Assembly (NCBI RefSeq): GCF_910592395.1
Contig: NC_088315.1
Span: 10,602,501-10,666,500, forward strand
Source of the DNA: Lineus longissimus
Lineage: Eukaryota > Nemertea > Pilidiophora > Heteronemertea > Lineidae
Reading direction: 5' to 3'
DNA length: 64,000 bases
Shown here: piece by piece, positions 11,981 through 64,000 of the stretch
Layout of the letters: each line of letters opens with the position of its first letter
Numbering within the stretch: the first letter of the stretch is position 1
Notes under the pieces: generated by a model
The model's database searches: none
The model's input: only the letters and a program-made list of their open reading frames with translations
What the model was told of the DNA's origin: nothing
Position numbers and translations under genes: made by a program

Positions 11981-11982
11981 GA

Positions 11983-47699: not shown

Positions 47700-49163
47700 C
47701 TTTTTTAGTAACGTTCATTATTTTGTTCCAGTCATTTGTTCAAACTTAACAGTTTATCATTTGTCCAGACAATTCGATTGGATAATCCTGTATTATTGTC
47801 TCTGTTCAAACTGAAAGCCAAAATCTGTGCTGTAACACTGCAGAGAATGCGGGAGCTGTTGTTACGCTTTTGCCAGGTTACATATTGATTACCTCATAGA
47901 GATCGAGCACCCGAACCAAACAAATTTCGAACATGGCGGCCCTGCCGTTTGTATTCTGTGCTCCCAAATATTGGCTCACTGTCTATAGTGACCATTAAAG
48001 TTGCATGGGTTTTTTAACCTCATTTTGCGATAACCTCATTTGTCCATAAGGACTGACCGATTCGGGCGCAATCGGCATCATTGGCTGTGTTTGGCATCAT
48101 AGGTGTGTCTCGTGAAGTGATTTTGGACAACAAACCATCGTATATATCTGTTTTTTTCGTTTTTCCATGTAATTTTGCCACGCCCCTTTTCCTGGGTGTT
48201 ATTCATATTGATTTATTATGGTCATATGTACGTACATTCGTACAAGGGGACGAGCTTACTATGTTCCAACAAATCGAGTACATTCGCAAAATGTTGATTT
48301 TTTGGACGCGTGTGAGTAGTGCAAATCGGCCACAAACAATTTATTCCATTTGATTCCACTTGATTCCATCGACAAATATTTAAAGAAAAGAACGAATATC
48401 GTGCCAGTTCGATAGTTTCAGGTTTGATCCGGGGGTGTGATAATGATAAGCGCGCAGCAGAAAAGCCGAAGGCTTTTCTGCGAAGCGCTACTATGGTTAA
48501 CGTGCATACGACGTATCCAATGTAAACAATGTTTCTCAAGTCCATGGATTCGTTTCAAATGGCTTCAATTTGACTTAAAATGGCCGCCAGAAGAGATAAA
48601 CGCGCGAAAGTAGAGAGAACCACACGATTATTCTCACTGTTTTTTAATCAAACTTCAATTTCAGGGGGTTTACCCCCCGACACATGTGTTTTGATTTTTG
48701 ATACTTCAGTGATAATATCCAAAAGATGCTTCAAATGGATATAATCCCGAAATAATGAACCAAAAGACGGGCAGGCGTTTCGAGAAAAAAAATTTTATTT
48801 TGAGATTTCAATAAACCTTTTGAACGAATTCCACATAGGCCGTGGTGGGATCCGAAGACACCTGAAAGAGGAATGTATGTTTTTATGGGGTACCATTGGT
48901 TTTGCAGATCTTCTGTTTTTTTCTAAAGAATAATCAATATTCGCTAGCAGGCTTTTTATGTTCCCAGGTATGAAGAGGGTTCTATGTTCCTCAGGTTCTT
49001 TGTTCATCAGTCTGGTGTTCCTCAAGAGTCAAGTGTCTTCAAGTCTCTTGGCCAGCAAAAACCCTTTCCAACCAATTTTTTATGCATTAACAATTCGGCA
49101 ACATGTTGGTGGGGGAAAAACCTGATCCCTAGATCCCTGACCCCTTGAATTGGTTGCCCAGAC
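47700..49163. other. No gene seen; one 23-bp hairpin
   Basis: Unique non-coding sequence. CAGAAAAGCC-GAA-GGCTTTTCTG at 48458-48480 is a perfect 10-bp stem hairpin. Confidence 0.5.
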
Positions 49164-49293
49164 AGAATATATGTATTGTGGTGGTAGGAATCTAGGTAAT
49201 TCTAAGCTATTTTAACAAAAGCCCTTACAGGCCTTTTTGTCTCAAATTAGCTTAGAAACCCCTAAGAACCAGACACCACAATACATATATTCT
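49164..49293. repeat. MITE-like hairpin repeat
   Basis: AGAATATATGTATTGTGGTG (49164-49183) and its perfect inverse (49274-49293) bound a 130-bp element. Inner parts also pair partly (TTCTAAGCT with AGCTTAGAA). Non-coding. Confidence 0.7.
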
Positions 49294-49686
49294 ATCATTC
49301 ATGAGATTCCCAGTGAAGCGTTGCAATGAAATGGTCAGTGAAGCGTTGCAGTGAAATGGTAAGGGAATACTAGAGTTCAATGGGTTAATGTAATCATGAC
49401 TTACTGTATTCCAACAGAAAGTACACGTCAATAGCTTTCCAAGGATACATCATTGCAAATATCCATTGAGAAATGGCAGAGAAATGAACCCTTGAAGTTC
49501 GCACATCTTGACAGTCCCAGCGTATTCCAATAAATGCTGTAGGCCTACAAGACAGCTGTTACAGTGATTAATCATTGTTGCTTGAATCTATTGAAAATAT
49601 TGTTGACAGAGTCTGCATGTACATGGTAACATATGTTACCAAACAATACTCACGTCCCAAAGTATTACAAAGGTCTATTGTTCGTT

Positions 49687-49788
49687 AATGCGTTTATCCG
49701 ACAGAATTTCGAGACATTATTTTAACGACGCAAAAATAATTTTCAGCGCTGAAAATATTTTTCGAAAATTCTGTCGGATAAACGCATT
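49687..49788. repeat. Inverted repeat upstream of the Polinton genes
   Basis: 23-bp perfect arms AATGCGTTTATCCGACAGAATTT (given here by position 49687-49709; right arm 49766-49788) with a 56-nt loop that contains a smaller palindrome, TTTTCAGCGCTGAAAA. It is about 155 bp before the first Polinton gene. Confidence 0.75.
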
Positions 49789-49944
49789 AAGACACAATAG
49801 GCCTTTTCATGTCTTTGACAAGCAAAAATAATTAATGACTGCAACATCTGATATGGCCATTGGTGAAATTATTCCATTAAAATAAATGGCCTTTTTACTG
49901 TCTTCATTAACCAAAATTCAAGGAAAAAAATTCAAGTAAATTAA

Positions 49945-51306
49945 ATGTATTATCCAATAGCAAATCAACATAAAAGTAAATTCACCTATGACTTCTTTAA
50001 TTTAGAAGTAACTGTTAATACTAATAACTTCTTCAGACTACAAGAAACTAAGATAACACCTGGGTTTTTGAGCCTGAAAAATAAGAAAGACTGTCTGCTA
50101 CTGGAAAAGAATCCATTATCGTTTTACCAGAACCAATTTAACATGGCTGTTTGGTTTGCTACAACAGGTTGTGGTATTTCAATAGACGATCACTTGAATC
50201 ACAGTGACCCATTGTTAAGGTCAATTTACAGGTTTCATGTTTACTATCAAATATTGAAGATCATGAAGAATCTAGAGATACCAATTCCAGGTGAAAGTGA
50301 TTTTAATGAGACAAACAATAACATTAACCGTAGGAAACTGGGAGGGTTATTGAGTGAATTTGGTTTAAAAGACGAGTACGATTTCTCGGTGTTTGAAAAT
50401 AACGGTGGTTGGAGGTCATGGAGTGTACCGGATTACAACCCGAACATAACTGATCCCGGATATTACATCAATGATTCTAAAATCAATTTCTTCCTCATGC
50501 AAGTTCATGAAAATAGAATGCCACCGATGTTCAGTAAAGACTGGGATGCTGGAATGGCTAATTTCAAATATCCAGATATTTTCATCAAGGATCATGTCAG
50601 GAGACACAAGAATGTATTTGATGTAATTACACAAAATGAATGTCAAACCTATCAACAATTCATGATATTTAAATCAAATGGTTTCTCTAATCCTGGAATA
50701 GAGAGGTTGAATGATACAATAAGAACATATGTTTACTGTATTCTGGGTGCTCAGGCGTTGACCAGAACACCAATAATTGGAGTACCGGGTACAGAATTGG
50801 ATGCACAGAAGGAATTTAACAAACTATTAAAGGACTCGATTAATCAACATCCTGATATTCCCACTTCAATTCAAAGATACCAAAAAGCAGTGAGTGACAC
50901 TCATACAAGACTAGATTATGTAATAGCACCAGGATTGTATGTCATAGGTTCAAATATGGTACTCGTTATTGGTAAGCTGGATAACTACAATAATAACATT
51001 TTAATAGCACCAAAAAATGCTAAACCCGGTAAGAATGACATTAACCACAAAAATACCTTACCACCACCACTGATGGAAGGAAATAGTTCTAAGAAAATAA
51101 GAGTTAAGAGTAGCGTTGGTACATCAATAACCAGTCATAAACCAAATAGTAATGTTGATACACCAAAAACAACTGAAACCTCAAAGAATACTCCTACTAC
51201 TACTAAACTTGACACCAAAGTTGAGAAGGTGGATGATACTCATGAAACAATTAAATTCATGCTTTACTCAGTTGTTGGTACATTGATTGTTTTTATGGTT
51301 AGATAA
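49945..51306 (+). CDS. Polinton protein, 453 aa, tail-anchored, candidate structural protein
   Basis: First gene of the element; its ATG lies in TTAAATG. The N-terminal 350 residues look like one globular domain (FYQNQFNMAVWFATTGC, YRFHVYYQILKIMK, ALTRTPIIGVPGTELDAQKEF, YVIAPGLYVIGSNMVLVIG). Then come a Thr/Lys/Asn-rich disordered linker and a C-terminal hydrophobic helix (IKFMLYSVVGTLIVFMV) ending one residue later, so it is probably tail-anchored. I recall similar proteins next to Polinton polymerases in invertebrate genomes but cannot assign a function. A virion or membrane role is inference from context. No palindromic module is present. It is followed 10 bp later by the next gene. Confidence 0.7.
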   Translation: MYYPIANQHKSKFTYDFFNLEVTVNTNNFFRLQETKITPGFLSLKNKKDCLLLEKNPLSFYQNQFNMAVWFATTGCGISIDDHLNHSDPLLRSIYRFHVYYQILKIMKNLEIPIPGESDFNETNNNINRRKLGGLLSEFGLKDEYDFSVFENNGGWRSWSVPDYNPNITDPGYYINDSKINFFLMQVHENRMPPMFSKDWDAGMANFKYPDIFIKDHVRRHKNVFDVITQNECQTYQQFMIFKSNGFSNPGIERLNDTIRTYVYCILGAQALTRTPIIGVPGTELDAQKEFNKLLKDSINQHPDIPTSIQRYQKAVSDTHTRLDYVIAPGLYVIGSNMVLVIGKLDNYNNNILIAPKNAKPGKNDINHKNTLPPPLMEGNSSKKIRVKSSVGTSITSHKPNSNVDTPKTTETSKNTPTTTKLDTKVEKVDDTHETIKFMLYSVVGTLIVFMVR

Positions 51307-51316
51307 ATAAGTAATT

Positions 51317-51362
51317 ATGGCTGAAGGAGGTGAAAATTATGAAATGGATGATTACGATTCAC

Positions 51363-51394
<32 letters not shown>

Positions 51395-51853
51395 GGAACT
51401 TTTGAACAAATTCTAGAAATGAGAAAGAATCTCCCTTATCCAGATGACGGCACAACATACAACACAGGAGGTGAATATATCCAAATGGATGAGATAGATC
51501 CTAATACAGGTGAAACCAATAGAACTTTTCAAGATGCCGGCACAACATACAACACAGGAGGTGAAAATCTTACTACTGAAACTTCATTCACTAAAACTCC
51601 AGAAAGGCAACGCACAACATACAACACAGGAGGTGAAAATCTTACTGATGAAACTTCATTCACTACAACTCCAGAAAGAGTAAGAGGTATTGTCCCTGAA
51701 TTGATGGAAAAGGAGTCATTTCTAGATGATAAAGAGGATAAACTTGATACAGCATTGAAAAAAAGTGGTAAATGGAAATATGACCCTAACAAACTAAGTA
51801 AACTAGCAACACGTATTTATTTGCACAACGAGGAACTACAAAAGGAGAATTAG
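51317..51853 (+). CDS. Polinton protein, 178 aa, with repeated TTYNTGGE motif
   Basis: An acidic, Ser-rich start (a run of ten Ser codons, TCA repeats at 51365-51393) is followed by three copies of TTYNTGGE (about 51452, 51542 and 51617) separated by spacers of about 22-30 residues ending in T-P-E-R. The DNA copies are almost identical (ACAACATACAACACAGGAGG), so the repetition is recent. The C-terminus is charged and helical. No known family. It is probably co-transcribed with its neighbours and may be a virion-associated or scaffold-like protein, but that is a guess. Confidence 0.65.
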
Positions 51854-51882
51854 CAAACTTTACAGAACAACAAAAGAACAAT

Positions 51883-52953
51883 ATGAATAAAATTCCTAAT
51901 CCTAATGGAGGGAATGCCTTTATCATTCCTTTAATTAAATCCGATGGTAAATTCCTTTCTGAAGGCACATTAAAGACTAAGTTTGGTACTAGATTTGCTA
52001 ACATGATTAGAGGTATGATTGCACCTGACCAACCAGTAAGTCAACCTACATTAGTAACCCCTGAAACACAGGCAGTAATTAATGAGGTAAACAGTTCAAA
52101 CAAACCAATAGATAAACTGATAGATTCTAATGATGATGAACTTAAATCACTGGGTTTTACTGAATATGCCTTGAGAGAACTTAGAGGGTTAAAACAGGCT
52201 GGTGATGATCTAGCTGCAGTAAAGAGGGATAAGGACATGCAAATAGAAAGCCTAGAAGAAGAACTTAATAATTTAACAAGAGACTATGTAAAGTCTGTAG
52301 AAGAAGATGCTAAAGATACGGGGGAGTTGAAAAAGAAAATAGATGAACTAAATGACAAATTGTATGAGGAAAAGTCAAAGGTATGGAGGTTAGACAATGA
52401 CAGGGAGTCACAAACTAGAAGAATTAAACGTTTAATTGTTGATGTTCTAAAGAAACCAGATTCAACTATTCCTCTGAAGGACAGAATAAAGTTACTTTTT
52501 AAGACGTATGGTGTAACTATTAGCGCCATAATAACAGCTGTTGTAATGACATTTACAACTCTAGGTCTCAGTATCAGTAGTGCTTTAAGTGGTGCCACTA
52601 AATCTGTAAAACCAACTCCAGGACCAGGACCATCTCCAGGACCAGACCCAACTCCAGGACCTACACCAGAACCTAGACCAAAACCATCAATACCAGATAA
52701 AGTAAAAGAAGGTCTCAAGAAGTTTGCTGAATGGCTAAAAGAACTAGCCAAGAAATCAGCTGCGGCTTTACCGGGAATCATCGGTTCTATCGTATCATTT
52801 CTCCTGAAAACAATTGGTGCAGTTGCTGGCTTTCTAGCCGAACATCTGATCATAGCAGTTATTGCTATTGTGAGCTCCATAATTTATGGTTTAATTGGGG
52901 GTGTTAAAGCCTTAAAATCACGTAAAACAGTAAAATCACGTAAAAGGTCTTAG
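51883..52953 (+). CDS. Polinton protein, 356 aa, coiled coil, Pro-Gly linker and membrane segments
   Basis: N-terminal globular part (FIIPLIKSDGKFLSEGTLKTKF), then a coiled coil (aa ~110-175, ESLEEELNNLTRDYVKSVEED). A hydrophobic segment (ISAIITAVVMTFTTLGLSI) leads to a PGPGP/PEPRPKP linker (aa ~245-268), an amphipathic region (LKKFAEWLKELAKKSAAALPGIIGS) and two further hydrophobic stretches (IVSFLLKTIGAVAGFL and IIAVIAIVSSIIYGLIGG). It ends in a basic tail with a duplicated KSRKTVKSRKR. It looks like a membrane-interacting virion protein. This architecture recurs near Polinton polymerases, as far as I remember, with no assigned function. Confidence 0.65.
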   Translation: MNKIPNPNGGNAFIIPLIKSDGKFLSEGTLKTKFGTRFANMIRGMIAPDQPVSQPTLVTPETQAVINEVNSSNKPIDKLIDSNDDELKSLGFTEYALRELRGLKQAGDDLAAVKRDKDMQIESLEEELNNLTRDYVKSVEEDAKDTGELKKKIDELNDKLYEEKSKVWRLDNDRESQTRRIKRLIVDVLKKPDSTIPLKDRIKLLFKTYGVTISAIITAVVMTFTTLGLSISSALSGATKSVKPTPGPGPSPGPDPTPGPTPEPRPKPSIPDKVKEGLKKFAEWLKELAKKSAAALPGIIGSIVSFLLKTIGAVAGFLAEHLIIAVIAIVSSIIYGLIGGVKALKSRKTVKSRKRS

Positions 52954-53001
52954 GTTACCTTCTATCAAAACAATGTTTAAAAAAATAATTATTATGTAAA
53001 T

Positions 53002-54170
53002 ATGAATAAATACATCTCATTAAAAGACTATTATTCTAGTGAGTCGGACTTCGTCCTGAGAGCAGAGCTCGAGTGGAACAATGAGAATCTTAAAGGATAC
53101 ATTCGTCCTAGGGTTATGGATCGAGCAGAGCTCTCAGGACGAAGTCGGACTAGGACAAAGTCCCGAGAGCAAAGCTTGACTCGAGCAGAGCTCTCAGGAC
53201 GAAGTCCGACTGAGACAATCAAAGTAGTCCTGCCAAGAATGAAAGAATATGACGTCAGTACCAACACTAATGCTCAATTCTGCCGTAATTGTAAAAGGTG
53301 GACCCTTTTTGAGTATCAAAAAAATTTGAATTCAGCAAGGTACGCAGCTAAAACTGTGAAGTATCAATTCTGCACCAATTGCAATTCGACTACTTACGAC
53401 GATGATTTTAAACTCTTGAGATCAATATTGACAACAAGACACGTTACTTTGACAGTATTCTAAGGAAACTTGGATGGAGTCGGCTGTCCGAATCGGCAGT
53501 AAAGTATTTAAAGGACTTTGTGGAAGGGTATTTACAGTGCTACTTTTCAAGTCACAGAAAATGTCTTAGTAAGCAGAGATATGAAAGTACTCTTCAGTCA
53601 GCCCTAAAAATGGGTATTAACACTCTCCCCTCTAAGTTATGTAACCAAGGGTTACATGGTGAAGCCATGCTTTTTAAATTTCACTGTGGGGAATATGATT
53701 GGTTTCTTGCCATTGAATTTATTAACAGGGCAATTGGTAAACCGCAATTAACCGATAAGAATATCACTGACCTTAGACTAGTGTACTATGCTTTCCTTAG
53801 ATTTCTGCATTACTGTGGTGTCAAGGTCACCATTAACTACACGGTATTTTTACACCAAGCCTTTAAAACGCTGAAAATTGATTATGTAATATTTACACCT
53901 TTTTTAACCAACAAGGAGCGAGTAAATGATTTGGAGAGAATATGGTATGATTTCACTCAAAGTATTTTCTTCCAGAATTACAAAGTTGAGAAGGAATACG
54001 ACCAGGATATTGACAAGCAGTTTGACGTTTTACTGAGTGCCAGTGCAGGTAGAGACATTAACTGCATCAGTAATATTAAGTTTACACCAGCCGGTCTTCG
54101 TCCTGAGAGCATAGCACCAGCCGGACTTCGTCCTGAGAGCATAGCTCGATCTAGTGTTAAGATGCAATAA
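53002..54170 (+). pseudogene. Polinton zinc-ribbon protein, frameshifted near 53410
   Basis: Two frames appear to be one gene. 53002-53463 starts with ATG, contains palindromic modules at 53046-53070 and 53123-53207 (read as LRAELE and RAELSGRS-type peptides) and a four-cysteine ribbon (FCRNCKRW ... QFCTNCNS). It then loses similarity in a short tail. The second frame opens after TAA at about 53411 without an ATG (DNKTRYFDSILRKLGW) and continues to 54170; its first possible start is GTG 53520, so a 1-base frameshift near 53410 is the simplest explanation. The second part is helical (HGEAMLFKFHCGEYDW) and ends in duplicated module peptides AGLRPESIA (54092-54147). Function unknown; zinc binding is likely. 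Confidence 0.5.
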
Positions 54171-54221
54171 AGTTGTGAAAACAGCATTTTGCACTTAACA
54201 GTCATTTTTCCATAATTTTAA

Positions 54222-55043
54222 ATGAATAATCAGCAAATGAATAGTCAGACATCTGCAGTGATTGAACAACAGATGAAACAGATTGGTGTTATGAGTCCTG
54301 AGAGCTTAGCTCGAGTTGGGGCTTCTAACCAACAGAACACTGGTAGTTACCAACAAAACAGAACTAACTTTCAACAGAACTGCTCTACAAATCAACAAGT
54401 TTCAAACAAGCAGTTGAATAGTTCAAATTTTGTTAATCCTAGTCAAGGAATAGTTAATCCCAGTCAAGGAATAGTCAATTCTAGTTGCCAACTAGGCTCA
54501 ACTAGCAATCAACAAAATTTGAACTATTTGACTGATAGTGGCCTTAAAGCCAAACAAGACTTAGAGATTCTAGTTGCAACTGGTAAATGCAAGGATTTCC
54601 TTAATAAACAAATAACTTTTAATGACGCAGATAATATGACTGAAAAAGAAATCTTAAAACACCATAGAATGTATGAAACAAAGATGGCTGCCAGACTTAA
54701 TGATTCTTTGGGTAAGACAGTAATTAAAGCTTACACTAAATTATCAAGGTGGTTATTACCAATAGATGATGAAGATAATCTTTACCATGATCTTAGAAAT
54801 GATTATTTGATAACTAACGAGTTGGATAAATGGCTTGTATGGTTGAGTTTGAGAATGGGACCATTAACTGCACTTGCTTCAACAACACTTATTACTTTAG
54901 GTCATTGTCATGAGGAATCATCTATGACTGCATCGAGTATGACTGCATCAAATATGAATACACCAAATATGACTGTCTCTGAATGTGACAAATCAATAGA
55001 TGAAAGTCTAGATATCACAGGTAGTGATGATAAAGAAGACTAA
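54222..55043 (+). CDS. Polinton protein, 273 aa, Gln/Asn-rich N-terminus
   Basis: ATG in TTTAAATG. Residues 1-110 are Gln/Asn/Ser-rich (NNQQMNSQ, SNQQNTGSYQQN) with a duplicated NPSQGIV and a module peptide SPESLARV at 54296-54316. Residues ~110-240 form a probably folded helical domain (LNDSLGKTVIKAYTKLSRWLLPIDDEDNLYHDLRNDYLI). The tail has M-T-A-S/N repeats. It is not recognised and may be a DNA- or capsid-associated protein; no motif decides this. Confidence 0.6.
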   Translation: MNNQQMNSQTSAVIEQQMKQIGVMSPESLARVGASNQQNTGSYQQNRTNFQQNCSTNQQVSNKQLNSSNFVNPSQGIVNPSQGIVNSSCQLGSTSNQQNLNYLTDSGLKAKQDLEILVATGKCKDFLNKQITFNDADNMTEKEILKHHRMYETKMAARLNDSLGKTVIKAYTKLSRWLLPIDDEDNLYHDLRNDYLITNELDKWLVWLSLRMGPLTALASTTLITLGHCHEESSMTASSMTASNMNTPNMTVSECDKSIDESLDITGSDDKED

Positions 55044-55092
55044 ATTAACCTGGTTATGAGAACATAGTTCGAATTAAATTCGGCCAAGATAA

Positions 55093-55629
55093 ATGGAACT
55101 TGAAACTGTAACTGATACTACTCGAGATATGCTCTCAGGACAAAGTCCGACTAGGACTATGTCCAGAGAACAAAGTTCGACTAAAGTTTCAGTGTCTAAG
55201 AAACCTCGATCAGAGAAACAATTAGCATGGTCTAGAGAACTGGGTAGAAGATCTAAGGAATTTAAGAGGATAAAAAAGGATAAGACGACATTTAAAGTAC
55301 AGGACTCCTCACCAAACAACAGAGTTGTGGAAAAGGAGGAAGAAGAATTAGAGGAAGAAGAACCACAATCTCAAAATACTGATGTATCACTGCGTGAATC
55401 TAGTAGTAATACTTATGTCTATGTACTAGGTTTAGGTGCCGTTATTTTAGCAGCATTCATTATGTTTAAGAAACTTCCTAAAAAAGTAAGTAAAGAGCAG
55501 CGATCAGGCTTGAATCGAGCTATGCTCTCTGGACAAAGTCCTAATGAAGCAGTCATGAAGGGATCAATTAACCCTCTTGTTAAACCTGTAGTTAAAGAGA
55601 AGAAATGTACTATTCCTTTAATGGAATGA
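55093..55629 (+). CDS. Polinton small membrane protein, 178 aa
   Basis: The N-terminus contains a four-palindrome array (55124-55178) read as DMLSGQSPTRTMSREQSST. Next comes a strongly basic region (RSEKQLAWSRELGRRSKEFKRIKK), then an acidic run (EKEEEELEEEE) and a single transmembrane helix (VYVLGLGAVILAAFIMF) followed by a basic stop-transfer segment. Another module pair lies at 55519-55543. A one-pass membrane protein is clear from sequence; its function is unknown. ATG in ATAAATGG. Confidence 0.65.
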   Translation: MELETVTDTTRDMLSGQSPTRTMSREQSSTKVSVSKKPRSEKQLAWSRELGRRSKEFKRIKKDKTTFKVQDSSPNNRVVEKEEEELEEEEPQSQNTDVSLRESSSNTYVYVLGLGAVILAAFIMFKKLPKKVSKEQRSGLNRAMLSGQSPNEAVMKGSINPLVKPVVKEKKCTIPLME

Positions 55630-55644
55630 TCTCATCAGGTGGTC

Positions 55645-55729
55645 CGACTTCGTCTTGAGAGCTCTGCTCGAGTCGAACTTTGTTCTCTGGACCTTGTCTC
55701 AGTCAGACTTCGTCTTGAGAGCAGAGCTC
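55645..55729. repeat. Six-module palindrome array between convergent genes
   Basis: Module starts at 55645, 55659, 55675, 55689, 55705 and 55719, i.e. steps of 14, 16, 14, 16, 14. Central ones are GAGC-TCT-GCTC, GAAC-TTT-GTTC and GAGC-AGA-GCTC. The last modules overlap the 3' end of the minus-strand gene, giving its C-terminus LELRIELCSQDEV. Confidence 0.95.
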
Positions 55730-56657
55730 GATTCTTAACTCTAAAGAAACCTCTGTTCCTCTGAAATTAACTAGCTTACCATTCTCATCAGTGATTTCGA
55801 ATTTTATGTGATTAGTACACTTATTTATCGTTTTCTTACAATTCGGTTCGTATCGCTGCATTTTTATTTGGTCACCATCTTCTACAGGTATGATGCAGAA
55901 AATGTTAGATGGTTTATTGTTGTAGAGGGTCTTAGCTTTGTCAACCAAATTAGCTTGCAGGAATAGATATTTCCTGTAAAGTTGAGTTGAGTGGTCTTGT
56001 GGAGTAGTATTTTCCTTTCTTGGTGAATTTAGTTTGCTTAAAGCCAAACCACTCATTCACCACTGTGAGCTGTTTTTCTATCACCTCTCTTATGGTTTTG
56101 CTTATTTGAAAACCTTCTGTGTTTCTCTCAATCTTGATTTTTTCATTTTTATCTAACTTGTCTACTTTCAGAGGGTACTCTTTATCCTCTGTAAGTTCAA
56201 GGGTTATGTAATTATTGTTATCACAGTAAATTTTCACATGGCTTATTCCAATTTCTTTTATGTATTTTTGCCATACCTCACAAAACTCACTTAAACTAAA
56301 ATGTCGAGAGTATGGAAATGTGTATTGAGTAATGGTGTCTTTAGTTGTGGTAGAATCATTTTCCAAATGCCGTTCGCAAATTTTCATGACTTCCTTTTCA
56401 AGTGTATCTGTTTCAAGTCCAGGAGCAAATAATGTCCTACACCATAATTGTTTATCTAAGGGCTCATGTTTTGTAATTCTGGTTATTTCGACTAGAAATG
56501 AGAAAATCCTGATTCCCTCTGGTAGAAAATCACCTGTCCACCATGAATTGTAAAAGGTTATCGATTTCAAAGTAATGGATTTTATGTCTAATTGGTCTGT
56601 TAAGTAGTACTCAAATTTGGCTTCATTACATTCTTGTTCATTGATTATGAAGTCCAT
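55703..56657 (-). pseudogene. Polinton candidate minor capsid/penton-like protein, frameshifted
   Basis: The minus-strand frame from ATG 56657 to 55950 begins with a region like Polinton proteins thought to be minor virion components (ITLKSITFYNSWWTGDFLP; ISKTIREVIEKQL). At about 55970-56010 the conserved continuation switches to the frame of 56056-55703 (YLFLQANLVDKAKTLYN, KPSNIFCIIPVEDGDQIK, IKFEITDENGKLVNFRGTEVSLELRI). The last segment, ending in an ITDENG-type beta strand pair, strongly resembles the end of that family. A 1-base shift is needed to join the halves: either decay or programmed frameshifting. Capsid assignment is by recalled resemblance only. Confidence 0.55.
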
Positions 56658-56713
56658 TTCTATTTAATTCAAGATATTTATTGAATTTAATAAATTTTAA
56701 TCTAATAAATAGA

Positions 56714-56830
56714 ATGACTGATAAGAATCAGAAAATACTTTGCACTACATGTGACAAGTACATATCCTACAATAATATGGCTATTCACAGGAGAACCAAA
56801 GGTCACTTAAATCCGGATTATCCAAATTAA
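56714..56830 (+). CDS. Tiny Polinton C2H2 zinc-finger ORF, 38 aa
   Basis: MTDKNQKILCTTCDKY then NNMAIHRRTKGH: C-x2-C-x11-H-x5-H, a single C2H2-like finger filling almost the whole product. It lies between two larger genes with its own ATG and TAA. It could be a small DNA-binding regulator; there is no further evidence of expression. Confidence 0.45.
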   Translation: MTDKNQKILCTTCDKYISYNNMAIHRRTKGHLNPDYPN

Positions 56831-56886
56831 ATCCGGATTATGTCCCTATTGCTCAACCCCGAGCCCAATCACTGATCCCTAAAACT

Positions 56887-59800
56887 ATGGATAAGAAACT
56901 TGCATTTGAGGAAAATGAGCTAGATGGCATAAAGAAAGTGAGTGGAATAGAAATAGTAAAACAATTTGGCAAGCCTGTAGTCACCATTAGTTTGAAGATT
57001 GACAGAGAAGCTAAACAAGTGTATGAATACAGAGATAAATTAGAGGAGGTATTATTTCAACTCAATGATTACCATCACAAAATTAGCATATCAGTATTTG
57101 CTCAGTTTGATCGTCAGGGTGAAAGTGTAACACACCCCATACAGTCTCCAATGGAAATCATAATTTAAAGGAACCAGGCAATTTATGCCATAACCAACCA
57201 GTTAAACTACATTAAGACACAGATTGAGGAAAGGTACTTTCAAGGTTCTGGACTTACTTTAAATAAAATAGAGTCTTGTAACATGACCATCTGTTCTTAC
57301 AAGAGGTGTAAAGGTGGTCATTACACTAAATTACCATTTAAAACAAAAGCAGTAATAAATGTGGAATCAAATGACAATAAATGTTTTCTCTGGTCTTTAT
57401 TGGCCGCTAAATATCTGAAAGAAAATCCAGAGACGGACTTTGTCCTGAGAGCAGAGCTCGAGAGTACATTAAATATTACTACCGATATGCTAGAAATGAC
57501 TTCGTCACGAGAACAGAGTTCGAAAACTACTGATATCAAAATCAAATCATTTCCTGTATGTATTCAAAAGGATATTCCTAAGATAGAGAGTGATAATAAT
57601 CTCAAAATTAATGTGTTCAAGTTAGAGAACGAATCGGCTAAGAGCACCTGTGAGGCAAAACTAGAACCTCTCTACCTGTCCAAGAATTATGATGATGATG
57701 ATGTCATTGATCTGCTCTATTTCAAGGACCATTTCATGTACATAAGAGACATCAATCTTTTCTTCAGGACACTAGCTCATAGAGTGTATCTTTGCAGGAG
57801 ATGCATGAATTACTTTTACAGGAAGTCAACACTAGATAAACATAAAAAGAAATGTGGAGAACACGATTACTGTAAGATTACTTTGCCTCCACCTAACAGT
57901 AAATGGTCACAAATTAAATTTGAAAAACACTCATTCAAAAATAGAGTTCCGTTTGTTATCTATGCTGATTTCGAAGCGATAAGCACAACAGTCAATGATA
58001 ACTCGAGCTCTGCTCTCACAACTCAGACAGATACCACTGTTACCACTAAAAAACTTTTTAAACAAAATGCATCAGCTGTTGGTGTTTATGTTCACTCAGA
58101 CTACACACACCTTTACAGTAGCCAGTATGTGTCTCACAGGGGTGCTGATGTTGTAGATGTGTTATGTAATTGGTTAATCAGGGTGGAAGAACAATTCTCT
58201 AATTTATTGAACTGTAACTTTCCTCTAACAATGACAGATGAAGACTGGCATAAATATCAATTAGAAACACATTGTTACTATTGTAATCAACCTTTGGGAT
58301 ATGACAAGGTCAAGGATCATGATCACTACTGTGGTAGATATCGAGGTGCTGCTCACAACTCGTGTAATTTGAATGAAAAGAAAGCTATGTTTGTTCCAGT
58401 GTTTTTTCACAATCTCAGTAATTACGATTCTCACTTATTTATTAAAGAATTAAAAACCTTACTCTTTTTACACATCACATGAAAGCTACAATGTTACTTA
58501 CCTAGAAAAGTCTATGTTTCTTGACGAATTGAAAAATGAAATGGCACCTGATTCTGCCTATGATGAGGCTAAGGTAATATGGGATCATTTCAAGATCAGG
58601 AATCACGGTGAGTTCATTGACCTCTACCTCAAAACTGATGTGATCCTTTTAGCTGATTTATTTGAGAAATTCAGGGATGTCAATTTGAACTACTTTCAGA
58701 TAGATCCCTGTCACTGTTACTCGGCACCAGGCCTAACCTGGCAAGCTGGTTTGAAGTACACAGGAATAAACCTAGAACTACTGACTGATACCAACATCTT
58801 ACTTACTTTTGAGAAAGCAATACGAGGTGGAATTTCGGGTGTTATGGGAACAAGACATGTCAAGGCAGATGAACACCACAAACTACTCTACGTAGACGCA
58901 AATAATCTCTACGGCTGGTCCATGATGGAACCTCAACCCTATGGTAGTTTTGAAATGATAGATATTGATCCACTCGAGCTATGCTCTCAGGACAAAGCTC
59001 GACTTAACATGAATGTTATCAGTAAAGAGCAGATTATGGCAATTCCAAGTGATAGTGAAGTAGGCTACTTCTTAGAGGTTGATTTGGAGTATCCAGGAAA
59101 TATTAAATTTAAGTCAAGGAACTTTCCATTCTGTCCCGAATCTCTCTTTATTGAAGATGATGAATTAAGTCCTTACCAGAGAGAGTTACTGGGTGATGAT
59201 AAAAGATCAAATGTAGAGAAACTAATACTAACACAAAAGGATAAAACTAATTACATAGTGCATTACAGAATGCTACAATTTTACCTAAAGCACGGAATGG
59301 TACTTAAGAGGGTTCATTCAGTGATAAGCTTTAAACAATCAAAGTGGTTAGCACCATACATTGATTTTAACACTAAAAGACGTATGGACTCTAAGACTGA
59401 TTTTGAGAAAGATTACTTTAAATTAATGAATAATGCGTTCTATGGAAAAACTTGTGAGAATGTAAGGAACAGGGTTGAAATTGAATTTGTATCGGACGGG
59501 GAGAGAGCCAGGAATGTAATGGCCAATCCCAGGTTTTCATCGATATGCGTATTTGACGAACATAATGCTGCTATTAGCATGAGGAAAACCTCAATGAAAT
59601 TCAACAAACCAATCTACATAGGAGCTTCAGTACTTGAATTGTCTAAATTATTAATGTATGAATTCTATTATGAAGTTCTTCAACCGTACTTTGGTGAGAA
59701 AAGTATTGAACTACTGTATCTAGATACAGATTCCTTTGTACTTAACATTAATACTGATGACTTAACTAAAGACTTAAAGGAGTTGAAACACTATTTTGAC

Positions 59801-60283
59801 TTCAGTAATTATCCAAAAGATCATACACTCTATGACACCAGTAAGAAGAAGGTACCAGGCTACTTTAAGGATGAGCTAGGAGGAGTAGAGATGACTGAAT
59901 TCATTGCCCTGAGAAGTAAGATGTACGCTTACAGGACCAAGACTATGTCTGGAGAGCAAGGCTCGACTAGGACAAAGTCCCGAGAACAGAGTTCGACAAA
60001 AGATTACGATTCTAAGAAATTGAAGGGTATTGCCAAGAATGTAGTAAGGAGAAATATCTCATTTGATGACTATGTTGATTGTCTTGAAAAGAGTAGGTCA
60101 TTTTACCACAAGATGAGACACTTAAGATCAGATAAACACCAAATCTATTTGGAAGAAGTTGACAAAAAAAGCCTCAGTCCTTTTGATGACAAGAGGTTCA
60201 TACTTGAAGATGGAATAAGCACCTTACCATTTGGAATGTATTATGAAGGCTACATAGATTACAGCGATTCAAACTTCGCTTGA
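56887..60283 (+). pseudogene. POLB: Polinton protein-primed DNA polymerase B, disrupted
   Basis: One gene in pieces. 56887-57168 is the N-terminal part, stopped by TAA at 57166; the same frame continues (ERYFQGSGLTLNKIES) into 57283-58482. That stretch has NDNKCFLWSLLAAKY, exonuclease motif I (YADFEAI, ~57960), a zinc-binding endonuclease VII-like insert (CYYCNQPLG ... DHDHYCGRYRGAAHNSCN) and exo II (NLSNYDSHLF). Near 58470-58510 about 100-150 residues are lost and the frame changes. 58514-60283 has exo III (YLKTD, aa 38-42), Pol A (VDANNLYGW), Pol B (KLMNNAFYGKT) and Pol C (YLDTDSF). The enzyme would replicate the element from a protein primer. In-frame palindromic modules sit at 57435, 57498, 58003, 58976 and 59940. 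Confidence 0.9.
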
Positions 60284-60286
60284 GTA

Positions 60287-60406
60287 CGACTACGTCTTGA
60301 GAGCATAGCTCGAGTCGAGCTTTGCTCTCGGGACTTTGTCCTAGTCGAGCTTTGTCCTGAGAGCATAGCTCGATTAGGACTACGTCCAGAGAACAAAGTT
60401 CGATTA
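60287..60406. repeat. Eight-module palindrome array, intergenic
   Basis: Directly after the polymerase stop. Module starts are 60287, 60301, 60317, 60331, 60347, 60361, 60377 and 60391, alternating 14 and 16 bp. Arms vary together: GAGC/GCTC, GGAC/GTCC, GAAC/GTTC. One further module (GGAC-GTA-GTCC) is at 60510-60520. This is the longest uninterrupted array and shows the rule most clearly. Confidence 0.95.
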
Positions 60407-60534
60407 AACTAATGAATAGGGTGGTGCTGATGGTAGTGTTACTTGGTGAAATTCATCCCTAACACCGAAGTCATGATAATAGTGATAGTGATACACCACA
60501 TTAGGATTAGGACGTAGTCCGGATCCTGTTTGAT

Positions 60535-61194
60535 TTACTGTGACTTCAGTTTTTCTAGCATCTCTGTCTGTGCTAGTTTTTTTCCTTCTTCTAAAAAAGT
60601 CTTCTTTAAAGACTCTACATCAACAGCTGAACTTGCCTCCCTTTGTTTTTTCCTAATGGCATTTTTCATCGAAATGTATTTCTCCTTCTCCTTGAGAATC
60701 AAAGTAAACTCATATGTAGATATGTGAGAATCGGTTAAGGCTTTACTAACCAAATCATTGATTGTGTTCAGTTTTGAAATTGCCAACATTCTGATATTCT
60801 CATGCTTTTCAATTTTCCTTAGAATATTCTTTTTCTCCCAGCCTAAGGCTGATGAAATAATGGCACTACCTATTGTTACGCCACCCAAAGCTAAGCCTAT
60901 CGGTGCCGTGATGACACCAGCTAGAGCGGAAACACCAACAGAGCCAGCTGCAACGCTGGCAAAATTAAGGAAATGGCTAATGCCAGTAATTACGCTAAAT
61001 GCTTTTTTGTACTTTGGAAATATCTTTCTTCTAAATTCAATCTCGCTTTCTAAGAAACTCTTAACCTCACATATTTGTTGTAGTCTGAAAGCCTGAGGGT
61101 TACTTTCTGTATGCTTTTCAGACCTTTCATAGTTTAATTTACTTTCAGAGTTTAAATTACTTAAATCTGGATAAACCTTATTGTCTCCATCCAT
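60535..61194 (-). CDS. Polinton membrane/coiled-coil protein, 219 aa
   Basis: Minus strand, ATG in TTAAATGG. A short N-terminus with YPDLSNLN is followed by a helix (FRLQQICEVKSFLESEIEFRRKIFPKYKKAF). A long Gly/Ala-rich hydrophobic region (FASVAAGSVGVSALAGVITAPIGLALGGVTIGSAIISSALGW) is followed by a long charged helical region (KKNILRKIEKHENIRMLAISKLNTINDLVSKAL). I recognise this as a recurring Polinton companion protein without known function. The layout suggests membrane insertion, possibly a role in particle entry or egress, which is inference. Confidence 0.7.
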   Translation of the reverse strand: MDGDNKVYPDLSNLNSESKLNYERSEKHTESNPQAFRLQQICEVKSFLESEIEFRRKIFPKYKKAFSVITGISHFLNFASVAAGSVGVSALAGVITAPIGLALGGVTIGSAIISSALGWEKKNILRKIEKHENIRMLAISKLNTINDLVSKALTDSHISTYEFTLILKEKEKYISMKNAIRKKQREASSAVDVESLKKTFLEEGKKLAQTEMLEKLKSQ

Positions 61195-61198
61195 TTAA

Positions 61199-61450
61199 TT
61201 AGTGGGAAAAACTAGAATCAGTTGTTCTGTCATTTCTAGTGTTTAGTGTTGATCCTACAGACACTACAGGTTTTTGAAGTACATTAAATTCTAAAGGTTT
61301 TTCTGTCCCAGCAGGCACAGCAGGTTTTAAAGGTTTTTCGGGACCAGGCTCCAACTTTGACTCTACTTCTGCCTCTAATTCTCTATGAAATCGTTCTAAT
61401 CTTTCTTTCCAATTACGTGGTCGTTTTGTGTAACCCCAAGTTCTATTCAT
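61199..61450 (-). CDS. Small Polinton protein, 83 aa
   Basis: Minus strand, ATG in TTAATTAAATG, ending 5 bp before the next gene starts. It starts MNRTWGYTKRPRNWKERLERFHRE, basic and helical, followed by a Pro/Lys/Glu-rich tail (PEKPLKPAVPAGTEKPLEF). No family recognised. Confidence 0.55.
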   Translation of the reverse strand: MNRTWGYTKRPRNWKERLERFHRELEAEVESKLEPGPEKPLKPAVPAGTEKPLEFNVLQKPVVSVGSTLNTRNDRTTDSSFSH

Positions 61451-61468
61451 TTAATTAAGTTAAATAAA

Positions 61469-62629
61469 TCAATTCACTGCAAAGAGTAAATTTCTTTCAA
61501 GTCTATTATTCAACTTAATCATCTCGTTTATGATTTCTGTCTGACTACATATGTTAATGTTCTGGTTCATTCTCATGTTATTATTTAAATTCGATAATCT
61601 ATCAAGCAGAATCATATTTTCATCACGAAGATAATCCCCGAAATGCTGTGATATCACTATTTTCCAATTTGGTATTACATCCTGGTCTCGAAAGACAAAC
61701 CAGTTTTCACTTCTCATCTTTACCATGAAATCCATTGACCTATCCAATTGATCCTTAAATAGTGTGTAGTCTACTTTAGCACTCTTCTGTCTGTTTTCTG
61801 TCTTTTCCATTGGTCTAATGTTAAACCAAGCAAAGCACAGTTCAGGTTTATCTTTGAATTCCTTGATTGGTAAGACATGATCCAACTCTTCTTCTACTAT
61901 TCGAACTCTGTTCTCGGGACTTTGTCCTATTGGAGATAGACTCCTCTGGTACTCTAACCACTGTGAGAAGAAACTGTCTGTACATCCTAGATTGAATGAT
62001 GAATTACCGGTACACTCTCCCTTAGAAATGCGGTTTAGACCAACTCTAATTTTGTGTCTGTCTCTATTACCATTTTGGTCAAGGTAATCCTTTTTGTAAT
62101 ATGAATTAAAACATGATCTGCAGTTACCTCTATTTCCGTCTTTACCAAATTCACCATCACTTAGTAATTTATTTTCATAACATTTATTACATCCCTTGAT
62201 TTTACTTGAACCACATTCTTTACAATAATCAAGTAGTTTATTACGCCTGTTCTTTTCAAAATTAATTTCAGGTTTCTTTTCACAGCACTTAACACAATAA
62301 ATTGTAGGTTGATTTTCCATGTTTTGATTCATCATATTATTCTGATTTTCCATATTATTCTGATTTATCATATTTTGATTTTCCATGTTTTGATTTTCCA
62401 TATTTTGATTTAACATAATCTGATTTAAGATAAACTGATTTATCATATTTTGATTTAACATAATCTGATTTATCATATTTTGATTTAACATATTATTTTG
62501 ATGCAAATAATACAAAAACTTCTGAATATTCTGATTCATCATATTATCATGATTCATCATATTATTCTGATTCATCATACCATTTTGATTCATCATACCA
62601 TTTTGATTATCAAATATTGCTCCATCCAT
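61469..62629 (-). CDS. Polinton HNH-like nuclease with NQNM repeats and zinc ribbons
   Basis: The first ~105 residues are repeats of N-Q-N-M/N-M-M/I-L-N-Q type from an AT-rich tandem repeat (62310-62610). They are followed by several C-x2-C pairs (IYCVKCCEKKP, YCKECGSSKIKGCNKC, CRSCFNSYY), which fit zinc ribbons. The C-terminal part has EELDHVLPIKEF ... CFAWFNIRPMEKTENRQK, the DH-x-LPI and N-x-RP-x-E-N pattern of HNH endonucleases seen in phages and giant viruses. A palindromic pair (61903-61927) is read as PIGQSPENRVRI, ten residues before the HNH start. Likely a DNA endonuclease; the substrate is unknown. Confidence 0.65.
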   Translation of the reverse strand: MDGAIFDNQNGMMNQNGMMNQNNMMNHDNMMNQNIQKFLYYLHQNNMLNQNMINQIMLNQNMINQFILNQIMLNQNMENQNMENQNMINQNNMENQNNMMNQNMENQPTIYCVKCCEKKPEINFEKNRRNKLLDYCKECGSSKIKGCNKCYENKLLSDGEFGKDGNRGNCRSCFNSYYKKDYLDQNGNRDRHKIRVGLNRISKGECTGNSSFNLGCTDSFFSQWLEYQRSLSPIGQSPENRVRIVEEELDHVLPIKEFKDKPELCFAWFNIRPMEKTENRQKSAKVDYTLFKDQLDRSMDFMVKMRSENWFVFRDQDVIPNWKIVISQHFGDYLRDENMILLDRLSNLNNNMRMNQNINICSQTEIINEMIKLNNRLERNLLFAVN

Positions 62630-62716
62630 TTCTTTCTTTATTTAGTAGGACATTTTTTTTTAAATTACGTTTTTCGAACTTGTTCTTGTGACTTAAGTCA
62701 CTTTAGAGACTTTATT

Positions 62717-63868
62717 TCATTTCAATGATTTGATATCAGAAACTGGTAACCATTCATTGAACTTATCACTGTAACCCTTCCACTTCACTAATCCGTATTT
62801 CTTGCCTTTACTGGTCTTGTACCTTAGGATTTTCTCGATCTTGTACTCTAGCTGGTCAGGATTAGGAACATAGCTCAATTCCTCTTCATAGAAATATCCT
62901 TGAATTTCTTCTTTGTGGTAATCCTCAAGCTGGTAGACGATAGGGTGAGTAAAGATGATCTGTTTGATTTGGAACACCTCCTCAGTGTAGTTGGGCATGT
63001 AACCTTTACCGAAAATGGACTTGTACTTTGAAATTCTTACACTGTCACCTACTTTGTACTTTGGATCACCAAATGTCTCTTTGAGGTGAAGACCGTAAAG
63101 ATTGTACCACACTGTTCCTTCGTTTTCCATCTTTCTGGCGTCTACAGGTTTCATACCTATTGATGAGTGAAATGTGTTATTGTAGCCGCTGACCAGGTCA
63201 TCCAGAACGTCAATCCACTTGTCAGTCTCCTTAGCGGTGAAATAACGCCACATTTTTTCTTTAAGGGTTCTATTGAATCTCTCTACTACTGCTGCCTTCT
63301 TATCAGATTTTGTGGAGAACCATTCTATGTCATTTTCTGTTAAGAGTTCCTTGAAGTGTTTGTTGTAAAATTCTTTACCGTCATCAAACTGGATTTTCGT
63401 TGGTTTTGCTTCCTCAAATATCACTTTAAATGCATCTCTGATTTCTTCTCCCCTCTTACTCTTAACTGCTAGAGCCCAAGAAAAACGACTAAATAGATCT
63501 ATGACTGTTAAAATGAATCTGAAACCCTTATTCTGTTTCTCAAATTTTTGCATGTCCACCAGATCTGCTTGCCATTGTTGATCGATGTACGATACCATTG
63601 TCTTCCTGAAGGTGAATTTCTTAATGGCCGGTTTGTGTAGTTGGTGAGTTGGTAGTGTTTCTAGAAATTCTTTCACTTCTTTTTGTTTAATAAGTTTTCC
63701 TGAGCGGGACTTTGTCCCTAGCAACGAAGTTGTGCTCTGCTCTCGTGACGAAGTCATATCTTCCTTGACCTGTTTCCAGATTTTACTCAAAGAACTGTAA
63801 GCCACGGGACTCTCGGGGTTGTAGTACAAATCCCTTAGATACTGCTGTGTGTCATCCTTTACATTCAT
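62717..63868 (-). CDS. INT: Polinton integrase with C-terminal chromodomain
   Basis: A retroviral-type DDE integrase of 383 aa on the minus strand, apparently intact. Catalytic residues are D102 (QADLVDM), D162 (FDDGKEF) and E196 (VVERFNRTLKE). The C-terminal SH3-like part (YKVGDSVRISKYKSIFGKGYMPNYTEEVF) leads to a chromodomain (EYKIEKILRYKTSKGKKYG, LVKWKGYSDKFNEWLP) that probably directs insertion to modified chromatin. The N-terminal linker contains palindromic modules (63707-63756) translated as TSSREQSTTSLLGTKSRSGK, between otherwise conserved segments. The start ATG faces the ATPase start with only TTAA between them. Confidence 0.9.
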   Translation of the reverse strand: MNVKDDTQQYLRDLYYNPESPVAYSSLSKIWKQVKEDMTSSREQSTTSLLGTKSRSGKLIKQKEVKEFLETLPTHQLHKPAIKKFTFRKTMVSYIDQQWQADLVDMQKFEKQNKGFRFILTVIDLFSRFSWALAVKSKRGEEIRDAFKVIFEEAKPTKIQFDDGKEFYNKHFKELLTENDIEWFSTKSDKKAAVVERFNRTLKEKMWRYFTAKETDKWIDVLDDLVSGYNNTFHSSIGMKPVDARKMENEGTVWYNLYGLHLKETFGDPKYKVGDSVRISKYKSIFGKGYMPNYTEEVFQIKQIIFTHPIVYQLEDYHKEEIQGYFYEEELSYVPNPDQLEYKIEKILRYKTSKGKKYGLVKWKGYSDKFNEWLPVSDIKSLK

Positions 63869-63875
63869 TTAAATG
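63866..63875. promoter_or_regulatory. Head-to-head start codons CATTTAAATG
   Basis: The integrase ATG (63866-63868, minus) and the ATPase ATG (63873-63875, plus) are separated by TTAA, forming the perfect palindrome CATTTAAATG. Each start thus has TTTAAATG. Any promoter must overlap the opposite coding sequence. Confidence 0.8.
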
Positions 63876-64000
63876 AGTGAAGTATTTATTTACGAGCCAC
63901 ACAATATGTTAATTTCTGGTGTTACCAATTGTGGTAAGACATATTTTGCCCTTGACCTCTTAGAAAAGGAGTATCGGCACAAGTTCCAGAACATAGTCAT
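63873..64000 (+). CDS. ATP: Polinton packaging ATPase (FtsK/A32-like), 5' part only
   Basis: Open from ATG to the window end. The first 42 codons carry a Walker A motif (MLISGVTNCGKTYFALDLL), typical of the FtsK/HerA-type genome-packaging ATPase (A32-like) of Polintons, which would pump DNA into particles. The rest lies outside the window. Position beside the integrase fits the element. Confidence 0.75.
   Translation, partial: MSEVFIYEPHNMLISGVTNCGKTYFALDLLEKEYRHKFQNIV

Follow-up and report, generated by a model that had tools for sequence, protein, structure and literature searches.

The Polinton and its genes

The subject of this report is a family of short palindromic units carried by a Polinton, a virus-like transposon, in the nemertean Lineus longissimus. 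The window that we analysed is a stretch of 64,000 nucleotides (nt) of contig NC_088315.1 (positions 10,602,501 to 10,666,500), and the Polinton occupies its right part (49163..64000), beginning with the left end 5'-AGAATATATGTATTGTGG and continuing past the right end of the window. The initial annotation had recognized the element, but its start lies further left than was then supposed, near 49163. At this end, 275 bp match the right end of a copy on contig C1 in inverse orientation, so that the two represent terminal inverted repeats. The C1 copy, the only one that was read at both ends, is flanked by a 6-bp duplication, CAGGAT.

The integrase gene (62717..63868, minus strand) encodes an rve core and a chromodomain (PF00665, 6.7e-12; PF00385, 1.2e-7). 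In the C1 copy (L057), the open reading frame (ORF) adjoining the integrase encodes the packaging ATPase, identified by its match to the terminase large subunit family phrog_2666 (E=1.2e-11). The polymerase gene (57283-60283) is broken into two open pieces in the window and has unbroken frames in other copies. Its motifs may be those of a protein-primed DNA polymerase B (PolB), although no Pfam, PHROG or PDB match names the window's polymerase as such. The first open piece (57283..58482, plus strand) includes an Endonuclease VII-like stretch at residues 328-376, for which the PF02945 match (E=1.7e-4, 21.9 bits) is below the cut-off of 23.6 bits and the phrog_423 match has E=3.8e-5. Homologues of the polymerase were found in contigs from IMG/VR and in contigs filed under metagenome-assembled genomes (MAGs), with 36-41% identity over about 575 residues in three of the five and partial alignments in the other two.

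A 27-bp unit made of two palindromes

The sequence GRRCN3GYYC occurs 45 times in the window, where 6.62 occurrences would be expected from 100 shuffles (sd 2.26, largest 14). Forty of these lie within 53046-63717, which bears out the earlier claim of more than 35 such modules between 53046 and 63756. It had also been stated that there were none in the other 50 kb. This holds for the complete unit described below, which is absent from 1-49162, but not for the single module, of which there are five isolated matches (817, 11165, 11497, 27422 and 36238); no oriented partner palindrome adjoins three of these five in the neighbourhoods inspected. Palindromes of any sequence with 4-bp arms and a 3-nt loop number 105 in the 53.0-63.8 kb region and 275 elsewhere in the window (9.7 vs 5.2 per kb), and the excess derives mostly from the arms GAGC (15 inside, 0 outside), GGAC (14 and 2) and GAAC (7 and 0). 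The two outside GGAC palindromes are a single site present in both copies of a duplicated stretch, with no second palindrome adjoining.

The palindromes are paired at a spacing of 3 nt and in both orientations, one member (A) being GARC-N3-GYTC and the other (B) mostly GGAC-N3-GTCC. The unit is thus 27 bp long, C-GARC-N3-GYTC-NNN-GGAC-N3-GTCC-N, with a final base that is mostly G and otherwise T or A; it consists of a 25-nt core, to which the coordinates given below for units refer, plus one base on each side. We counted 26 units in the window's Polinton, including half-eroded ones at 54288 and 58005. The 11-bp palindromes that the initial annotation took as its module are therefore real, but the natural unit is a pair of them.

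The pairing was examined by orienting each A palindrome by its flanking GA/TC and taking the 11 nt at a fixed distance, unfiltered, a procedure that is less circular than alignment. For 22 A palindromes (the 23rd, at 62866, could not be assigned an orientation), 14 partners were perfect 4-bp palindromes, compared to 1% of random 11-mers. The perfect partner arms in the window are GGAC/GTCC, AGAC/GTCT, TGAC/GTCA and TAAC/GTTA. Across the Polinton copies compared, 244 of 342 units have a perfect B palindrome, and the same compensated arms recur, together with GTAC/GTAC. In an alignment of the 26 units, 93.3% of the cells pair, versus 87.0% in shuffles, and sliding the partner reduces pairing to 15-38%. 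Fourteen pair cells are changed on both sides, versus 3.3 for shuffles, none of 500 of which reaches this number, in a test that is partly circular because the tested structure was derived from the same 26 sequences. The arms do covary, as had been proposed, but the count of whole pairs is less striking, with only three of the eight varying on both sides (1.9 in shuffles, with 72 of 500 as high). As DNA, the array at 53115-53215 folds better than its shuffles (z -2.29).

Units inside and between genes

Eighteen of the 26 units lie inside the ten ORFs that we considered, where every combination of orientation and codon phase (six in all) is represented, which argues that they do not represent a peptide motif. 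A 19th unit (55705-55729) overlaps the end of an ORF on the minus strand, 55703-56056, that is not among the ten, and the remaining seven are intergenic. The spacer TGA is found in 0 of 6 units placed in the frame where it would result in a stop, versus 15 of 20 elsewhere (p=0.002). In the commonest form of the unit, five of the six frames are open. Since the length added, 30 bp, is a multiple of 3 as well, units can sit in genes.

From left to right, the series begins with a single unit at 53046..53070 (plus strand), flanked on both sides by AGT, and an array of three (-, +, -) within an ORF at 53123..53207, with outer flanks GAT and ACT. Two plus-strand sites within ORFs follow: an array of two units at 54093..54147, which has two to four units in other copies, and a unit with an eroded second palindrome at 54288..54312. 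The intergenic unit at 55046..55070 (plus strand) has the compensated arms TAAC/GTTA. An array of two (-, +) within an ORF is found at 55124..55178, where 4 of 11 readable copies have both units and 7 lack one, and a minus-strand unit within an ORF, with flanks AAT/AAT, lies at 55517..55541.

Two arrays occupy both of the places where genes converge. The one at 55645..55729 has three units between 3' ends, the third being the unit that overlaps an ORF end, and the one at 60287..60401 has four units, with one to four or more in other copies. As RNA, both fold better than shuffled sequences (55636-55738, z -2.55; 60280-60412, z -6.90). Between these arrays, the polymerase gene carries plus-strand units at 57435..57459, with flanks AGA/AGA and filled in few homologues, and at 57497..57521, with compensated arms TGAC/GTCA. 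It also has a minus-strand unit at 58005..58029 in which little of the second palindrome is left (the whole unit is present in L031 and the site is empty in L061 and L063), a minus-strand unit with a chimeric arm in the second open piece (58976..59000), and a plus-strand array of two units at 59940..59994. To the right of the second junction, there is a lone GGAC palindrome (60510..60520, plus strand), where some other copies have one or two units, then a minus-strand unit within an ORF and with flanks ATT/ATT (61903..61927), and finally a degenerate minus-strand cluster near the start of the integrase gene (63707..63756), in which one unit (63732-63756) is recognizable. Outside the window, the C1 copy L008 has a unit at 1501-1527, in its first large ORF; the counterpart of this ORF in the window, 49945-51306, has none.

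The five polymerase homologues (L003-L007) contain no GRRCN3GYYC at all and could therefore be compared with the gene that carries units; for L005 and L007, whose frames are broken, only the longest open piece was aligned. In the second polymerase piece, residues encoded by the modules are matched by an average of 1.71 of the 5 homologues, versus 3.75 for the rest (19 of 588 circular shifts as low). At most of the units, the homologues show gaps. The clearest insert is the array at 59940-59994, which, relative to the three homologues that extend this far, places 15-19 extra residues between two blocks of conserved sequence; the same site is empty in the Polinton copy L065. The possibility that the modules are ordinary conserved codons, when examined on these related Polintons, thus finds no support, as the modules appear as insertions. 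Here, a second mobile sequence would be extending the proteins of a transposon in steps of ten residues.

Filled and empty sites

The Polinton copies compared are closely similar outside the units, with a mean divergence of 1.55% and a maximum of 11.8% (29 copies, L031 excluded). Among 130 flank pairs examined, leaving out L048, which reads N, 87 have no empty partner among the loci compared. The remaining 43 filled/empty comparisons, which reduce to 23 distinct flank pairs, all differ by exactly 30, 60 or 90 bp, although lengths up to ~7 bp away from these values would have been accepted.

Five sites are filled in some copies without a neighbouring unit, and all five are empty in the window. 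At 54500..54501, 9 of 12 copies are filled, two are empty (the window and L055) and one is unreadable; at 55567..55568, 2 of 12 are filled (L051 and L052), 9 are empty and one is unreadable. Among 30 copies, 57539..57540 is filled in 6, empty in 22 and unreadable in 2, and its units have GTAC/GTAC arms; 58242..58243 has a unit in 12 copies and none in 18; and 59764..59765 is filled in a single copy and empty in 29.

Flanking repeats and target

The triplets that flank the 27-bp unit tend to be equal. This was assessed at 20 sites, a set that includes neither the single palindrome at 60510 nor the degenerate cluster at 63707-63756. All three bases agree at 10 of the 20, two at 6 and one at 4; random triplets of the Polinton agree in 2% of cases. 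At this offset the mean match is 2.3, more than at any other; the neighbouring offsets that overlap it give 1.85-1.9 and the rest 1.4 or less. Repeats of 4 or 5 bp were considered initially, but a length of 3 bp was adopted, as the sites taken together agree best in the triplet that begins one base beyond the core. The triplets are mostly ANT, which accounts for 12 of those on the left and 15 of those on the right, out of 20 each, against a background of 10.5%.

For nine sites without an adjacent unit, an empty allele is known. At five of them the triplets are equal: ACT at 58242, 59764 and 54500, AAT at 57539, and AGC at the L067/L062 site. At the other four (55567, 59940, 58005 and the L008 site) they are unequal. 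Three of these can be given as target and other triplet: AAT and ACT at 55567, ACA and ACC at 59940, and, for L031 at the 58005 site, TGT and AGT.

Turnover of units and arrays

Inside arrays, whole units are exchanged between copies. These units come in two forms, a split that is not clean: one has a TGA spacer and mostly GAGC arms, and in the other the spacer is AGA or CGA and GAAC arms are frequent. The five-base spacer between the units of an array consists of the end base of one unit, the 3-bp repeat and the end base of the next. The chimeric palindrome at 58990 is best explained by a putative 30-bp deletion between two units that other copies retain. Inversion of the loop (AGA/TCT) as a general process was considered and found to be unsupported, as most single sites keep their loops and changes are mostly in arrays; 57539, with three loop forms, is the exception among the single sites.

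Distribution in the genome

The assembly searched comprises 391 Mb in 30 contigs. A strict pattern for the unit has 1,544 exact places in it (781 + 763), and the reversed control has 0; a third pattern with one loop fixed also has 0. The contigs whose size was seen are 13.6-29.4 Mb long, so the genome that bears the units is not mitochondrial DNA. The polymerase is present in at least 74 copies at 98-100% identity, with spans of mostly 1707, 1737, 1767, 1797 or 1827 bp, that is, in 30-bp steps. An open frame of at least 1,240 residues is found in 47 of the 74, four of which have internal stops marked.

Among the 1,544 places, 100 were listed, apparently in contig order, in which case they would span C1 and the first 15.9 Mb of C2. 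They fall into 12 groups up to 13.7 kb wide, one of them on C2, when the lone place C1:14641447 is joined to its neighbours. Each group is a Polinton: seven hold or adjoin a copy of the polymerase and, the other five are represented by eight pieces, each of which matches Polinton DNA along 83-100% of its length, with 75-99% identity. No unit was found in 56,332 bases of host DNA that were scanned. An equal density of the modules outside Polintons, which would have spoken against a family confined to these elements, is thus not what we see, with all 100 of the places listed in Polinton clusters. Scans with the unit pattern gave 0 matches in viral_contigs and 0 in genome_contigs. A blastn search with one array matched ten plasmid records of a single genus, over 27 bases each and with E 0.3, which we take as chance.

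A probable mobile element within the Polinton

With its exact ends, its isolated single sites and its short target repeat, the 27-bp unit behaves like a mobile element. We consider it likely, with a probability of about 0.75, that each module is one half of a mobile double-palindrome element, which spreads inside the copies of one Polinton family and from one copy to another. The initial annotation had proposed a short, dispersed, self-spreading palindromic family within the Polinton that was not a protein motif. The six frame classes, the intergenic units, the covariation, the 30-bp steps between filled and empty sites and the short target repeat all agree with this proposal, which can now be refined to a 27-bp unit with a 3-bp repeat. 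That the unit spreads by itself is suggested by the filled/empty polymorphism.

In the mechanism that we favour, the unit would be joined or copied in at ANT by its own 3-nt ends. Each insertion would add exactly 30 bp, comprising the 27-bp unit and a 3-bp target repeat, usually the symmetric ANT. The repeats could arise from a 3-nt staggered cut, with the end of the unit annealing to the end of the target, a step that would fit the sites where one triplet equals the target and the other is unit-like. The unit is probably copied rather than cut out. As an insertion would leave target triplets beside the unit, further units could land there and build up arrays with a 30-bp period, from which recombination between units would delete 30 bp again. 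Proteins of the Endonuclease VII family cut cruciforms, and the Endonuclease VII-like stretch of the polymerase gene might be a candidate for the enzyme, its role being a guess. The Polinton integrase acting in its usual manner is an unlikely mover of the unit, because the 6-bp duplication of the C1 copy indicates a different stagger for the integration of the Polinton itself. More tentatively, and at somewhat less than even odds, the unit could be regarded as a hyperparasite of the virus-like transposon, inserting via its 3-nt ANT ends by an activity borne by the Polinton or the host. It would then perhaps be the smallest mobile DNA unit of a nuclear genome, shaped for harmless translation in nearly any frame.

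Several observations weigh against a mobile unit with a true target duplication. Single hairpins are weak, at -0.3 to -1.4 kcal/mol each as DNA, so that folding may be no more the role of the palindromes than protein binding. Inspection of the sites preceded the choice of the offset for the unit ends, a minority of the 20 sites have known empty alleles, and the four sites with a flank match of one base are two arrays and two eroded units. Given the unequal triplets at four of the nine sites with a known empty allele, microhomology rather than true duplication may account for the repeat. The units of the first polymerase piece are not clear gaps in the comparison with the homologues (2.52 vs 3.22, with 44 of 398 shifts as low). 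On a tree of 28 copies, which omits L031 and L043, the presence of units is scattered; site 58242, for example, requires 10 changes (shuffled mean 9.3), at least 4 of which are forced by well supported branches. This pattern would result from recombination between Polintons or from repeated gain and loss. Only for sites at which few copies have a unit is the direction of change clear.

The strongest rival to a mobile unit is template switching during replication, in which a strand stalls at a triplet such as ACT, jumps to an array, copies one 30-bp period and returns. This would need neither a dedicated enzyme nor an element, the palindromes only easing the jumps, and it accounts for the unequal triplets as well. 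Where unequal flanks have a known empty site, they consist of the target and a triplet resembling an array spacer (55567 and L031, less clearly 59940). The insert is always a multiple of the array period, chimeric half-units occur, and arrays with ACT, AAT and AGT spacers exist. However, none of the array spacers observed is AGA, the triplet that is repeated at 57435, and the ends of the unit are precise in 43 of 43 comparisons. We regard template switching as quite possible, at odds of the order of one in three. Ordinary slippage of a tandem repeat in coding sequence would likewise produce the 30-bp steps by which array sites vary between copies, and it may still explain changes within arrays; as an account of the whole it is very improbable, being contradicted by the five sites filled without a neighbouring unit and by the occurrence of units in both orientations.

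Two further explanations were considered. The palindromes might be kept as such by selection because they are bound in a sequence-specific manner, with a role in replication, in packaging or at transcription ends, as could be argued from the covarying arms and from the arrays at both convergent gene junctions with their RNA folding beyond that of shuffles. This is unlikely, since 18 or 19 of the 26 units are inside ORFs and since near-identical copies often differ in whether a given site is filled or empty, such that a unit is not needed at any particular position. That the Polinton proteins share a repeated peptide motif could be suspected from the open frames in which units are found (RTKSREQS, DFVLRAEL and others) and from the lengths of the inserts compared, all multiples of 3. 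This is scarcely tenable and already contradicted, as the six classes of orientation and phase give different peptides, 7 or 8 of the 26 units are intergenic, and it is nucleotide pairs that covary.

Comparison with known elements

The REP/BIME repeats (repetitive extragenic palindromes and bacterial interspersed mosaic elements), which are moved by REP-associated tyrosine transposases (RAYTs), likewise consist of short palindromes that are paired, alternate in orientation and adjoin a short conserved word, but they are bacterial and extragenic. No Y1 (HUH) transposase family was among the family-search matches of the ORFs scanned, which were part of the ORFs. Miniature inverted-repeat transposable elements (MITEs) are small and non-coding, with a short target duplication and with terminal inverted repeats shared with a transposon. 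The Polinton unit is likewise small and non-coding, and its 3-bp flanking repeat, exact at 10 of 20 sites, may correspond to such a duplication; however, it is inverted only at its end bases, C..G, and the ends of the Polinton (AGAATATATG), the sole transposon compared, are unrelated to it, so that no terminal inverted repeats shared with an autonomous transposon were found. Among the papers listed by our search of the open-licence literature, none describes such an element in Polintons (Mavericks) or as a short palindromic insert in nuclear DNA.

Short mobile palindromes are already known from mitochondria and bacteria, and in the mitochondrial case the mode of movement is still open (PMC4478555). 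The GC clusters of yeast mitochondria, as described there, include GC42, which is 42 bp long and G+C-rich and has AG as its target. They resemble the Polinton unit as short mobile palindromes that vary in copy number among close relatives, whose units merge and are shuffled, and for which there is a putative target duplication of very small size (PMC4478555). The unit differs in being 27 bp long, with two palindromes with 4-bp arms and a mostly ANT 3-bp repeat, and in being nuclear and mostly in genes. The hairpin elements of fungal and sponge mitochondria also share features with it, namely hairpin-forming units (with two hairpins in the double-hairpin elements), lineage-specific bursts and the copying of larger composites, but they are mitochondrial and mostly intergenic (PMC2800124, PMC10085805). 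The elements of Allomyces are described as lacking flanking duplications (PMC2800124). Rickettsia palindromic elements are similar in being palindromic inserts tolerated in frame in protein genes and differ in being bacterial and about 150 bp long (PMC10969869). Because dozens of near-identical Polinton copies are present in one genome and provide both filled and empty alleles of homologous sites, the insert size, the target, the repeat and the copying route can be read directly here.

Other features of the Polinton and the window

A structure model of PolB had a mean pLDDT (predicted local distance difference test) of 38, too poor for use. Searches of PolB against phages gave no match, and none was confirmed for the integrase or PolB in viral_contigs; a further candidate, L001, had a mere 17-residue match and was dropped. 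Around 58456, a 221-nt stretch is absent from the window's copy alone among 30 aligned copies. The ORF at 61469-62629 shows, by eye, zinc-binding cysteines and an HNH-like DHVLPI..N..K stretch, and in family searches it gave weak matches in some and none in others. A short tandem repeat at 61295-61330 varies between Polinton copies by multiples of 18 bp. Near the left end of the window's Polinton, about 480 bp (49387-49869) are inserted relative to other copies, and this insert carries inverted arms at 49658-49723 and 49752-49817.

In the DNA to the left of the Polinton, a block encoding proteins such as MYTRGPPAVLIPPKPVK occurs three times between 19021 and 43152, as direct copies that have diverged and lie 10.4 and 8.8 kb apart. 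Pieces of a Harbinger-like transposase were recognized by eye at 27450-28467 and 36743-37295, in two stretches that are 97-99% identical. At the left end of the window, a 199-nt inverted repeat (1-199 and 11979-12177, 99%) surrounds two ORFs that, by eye, are retroelement-like.

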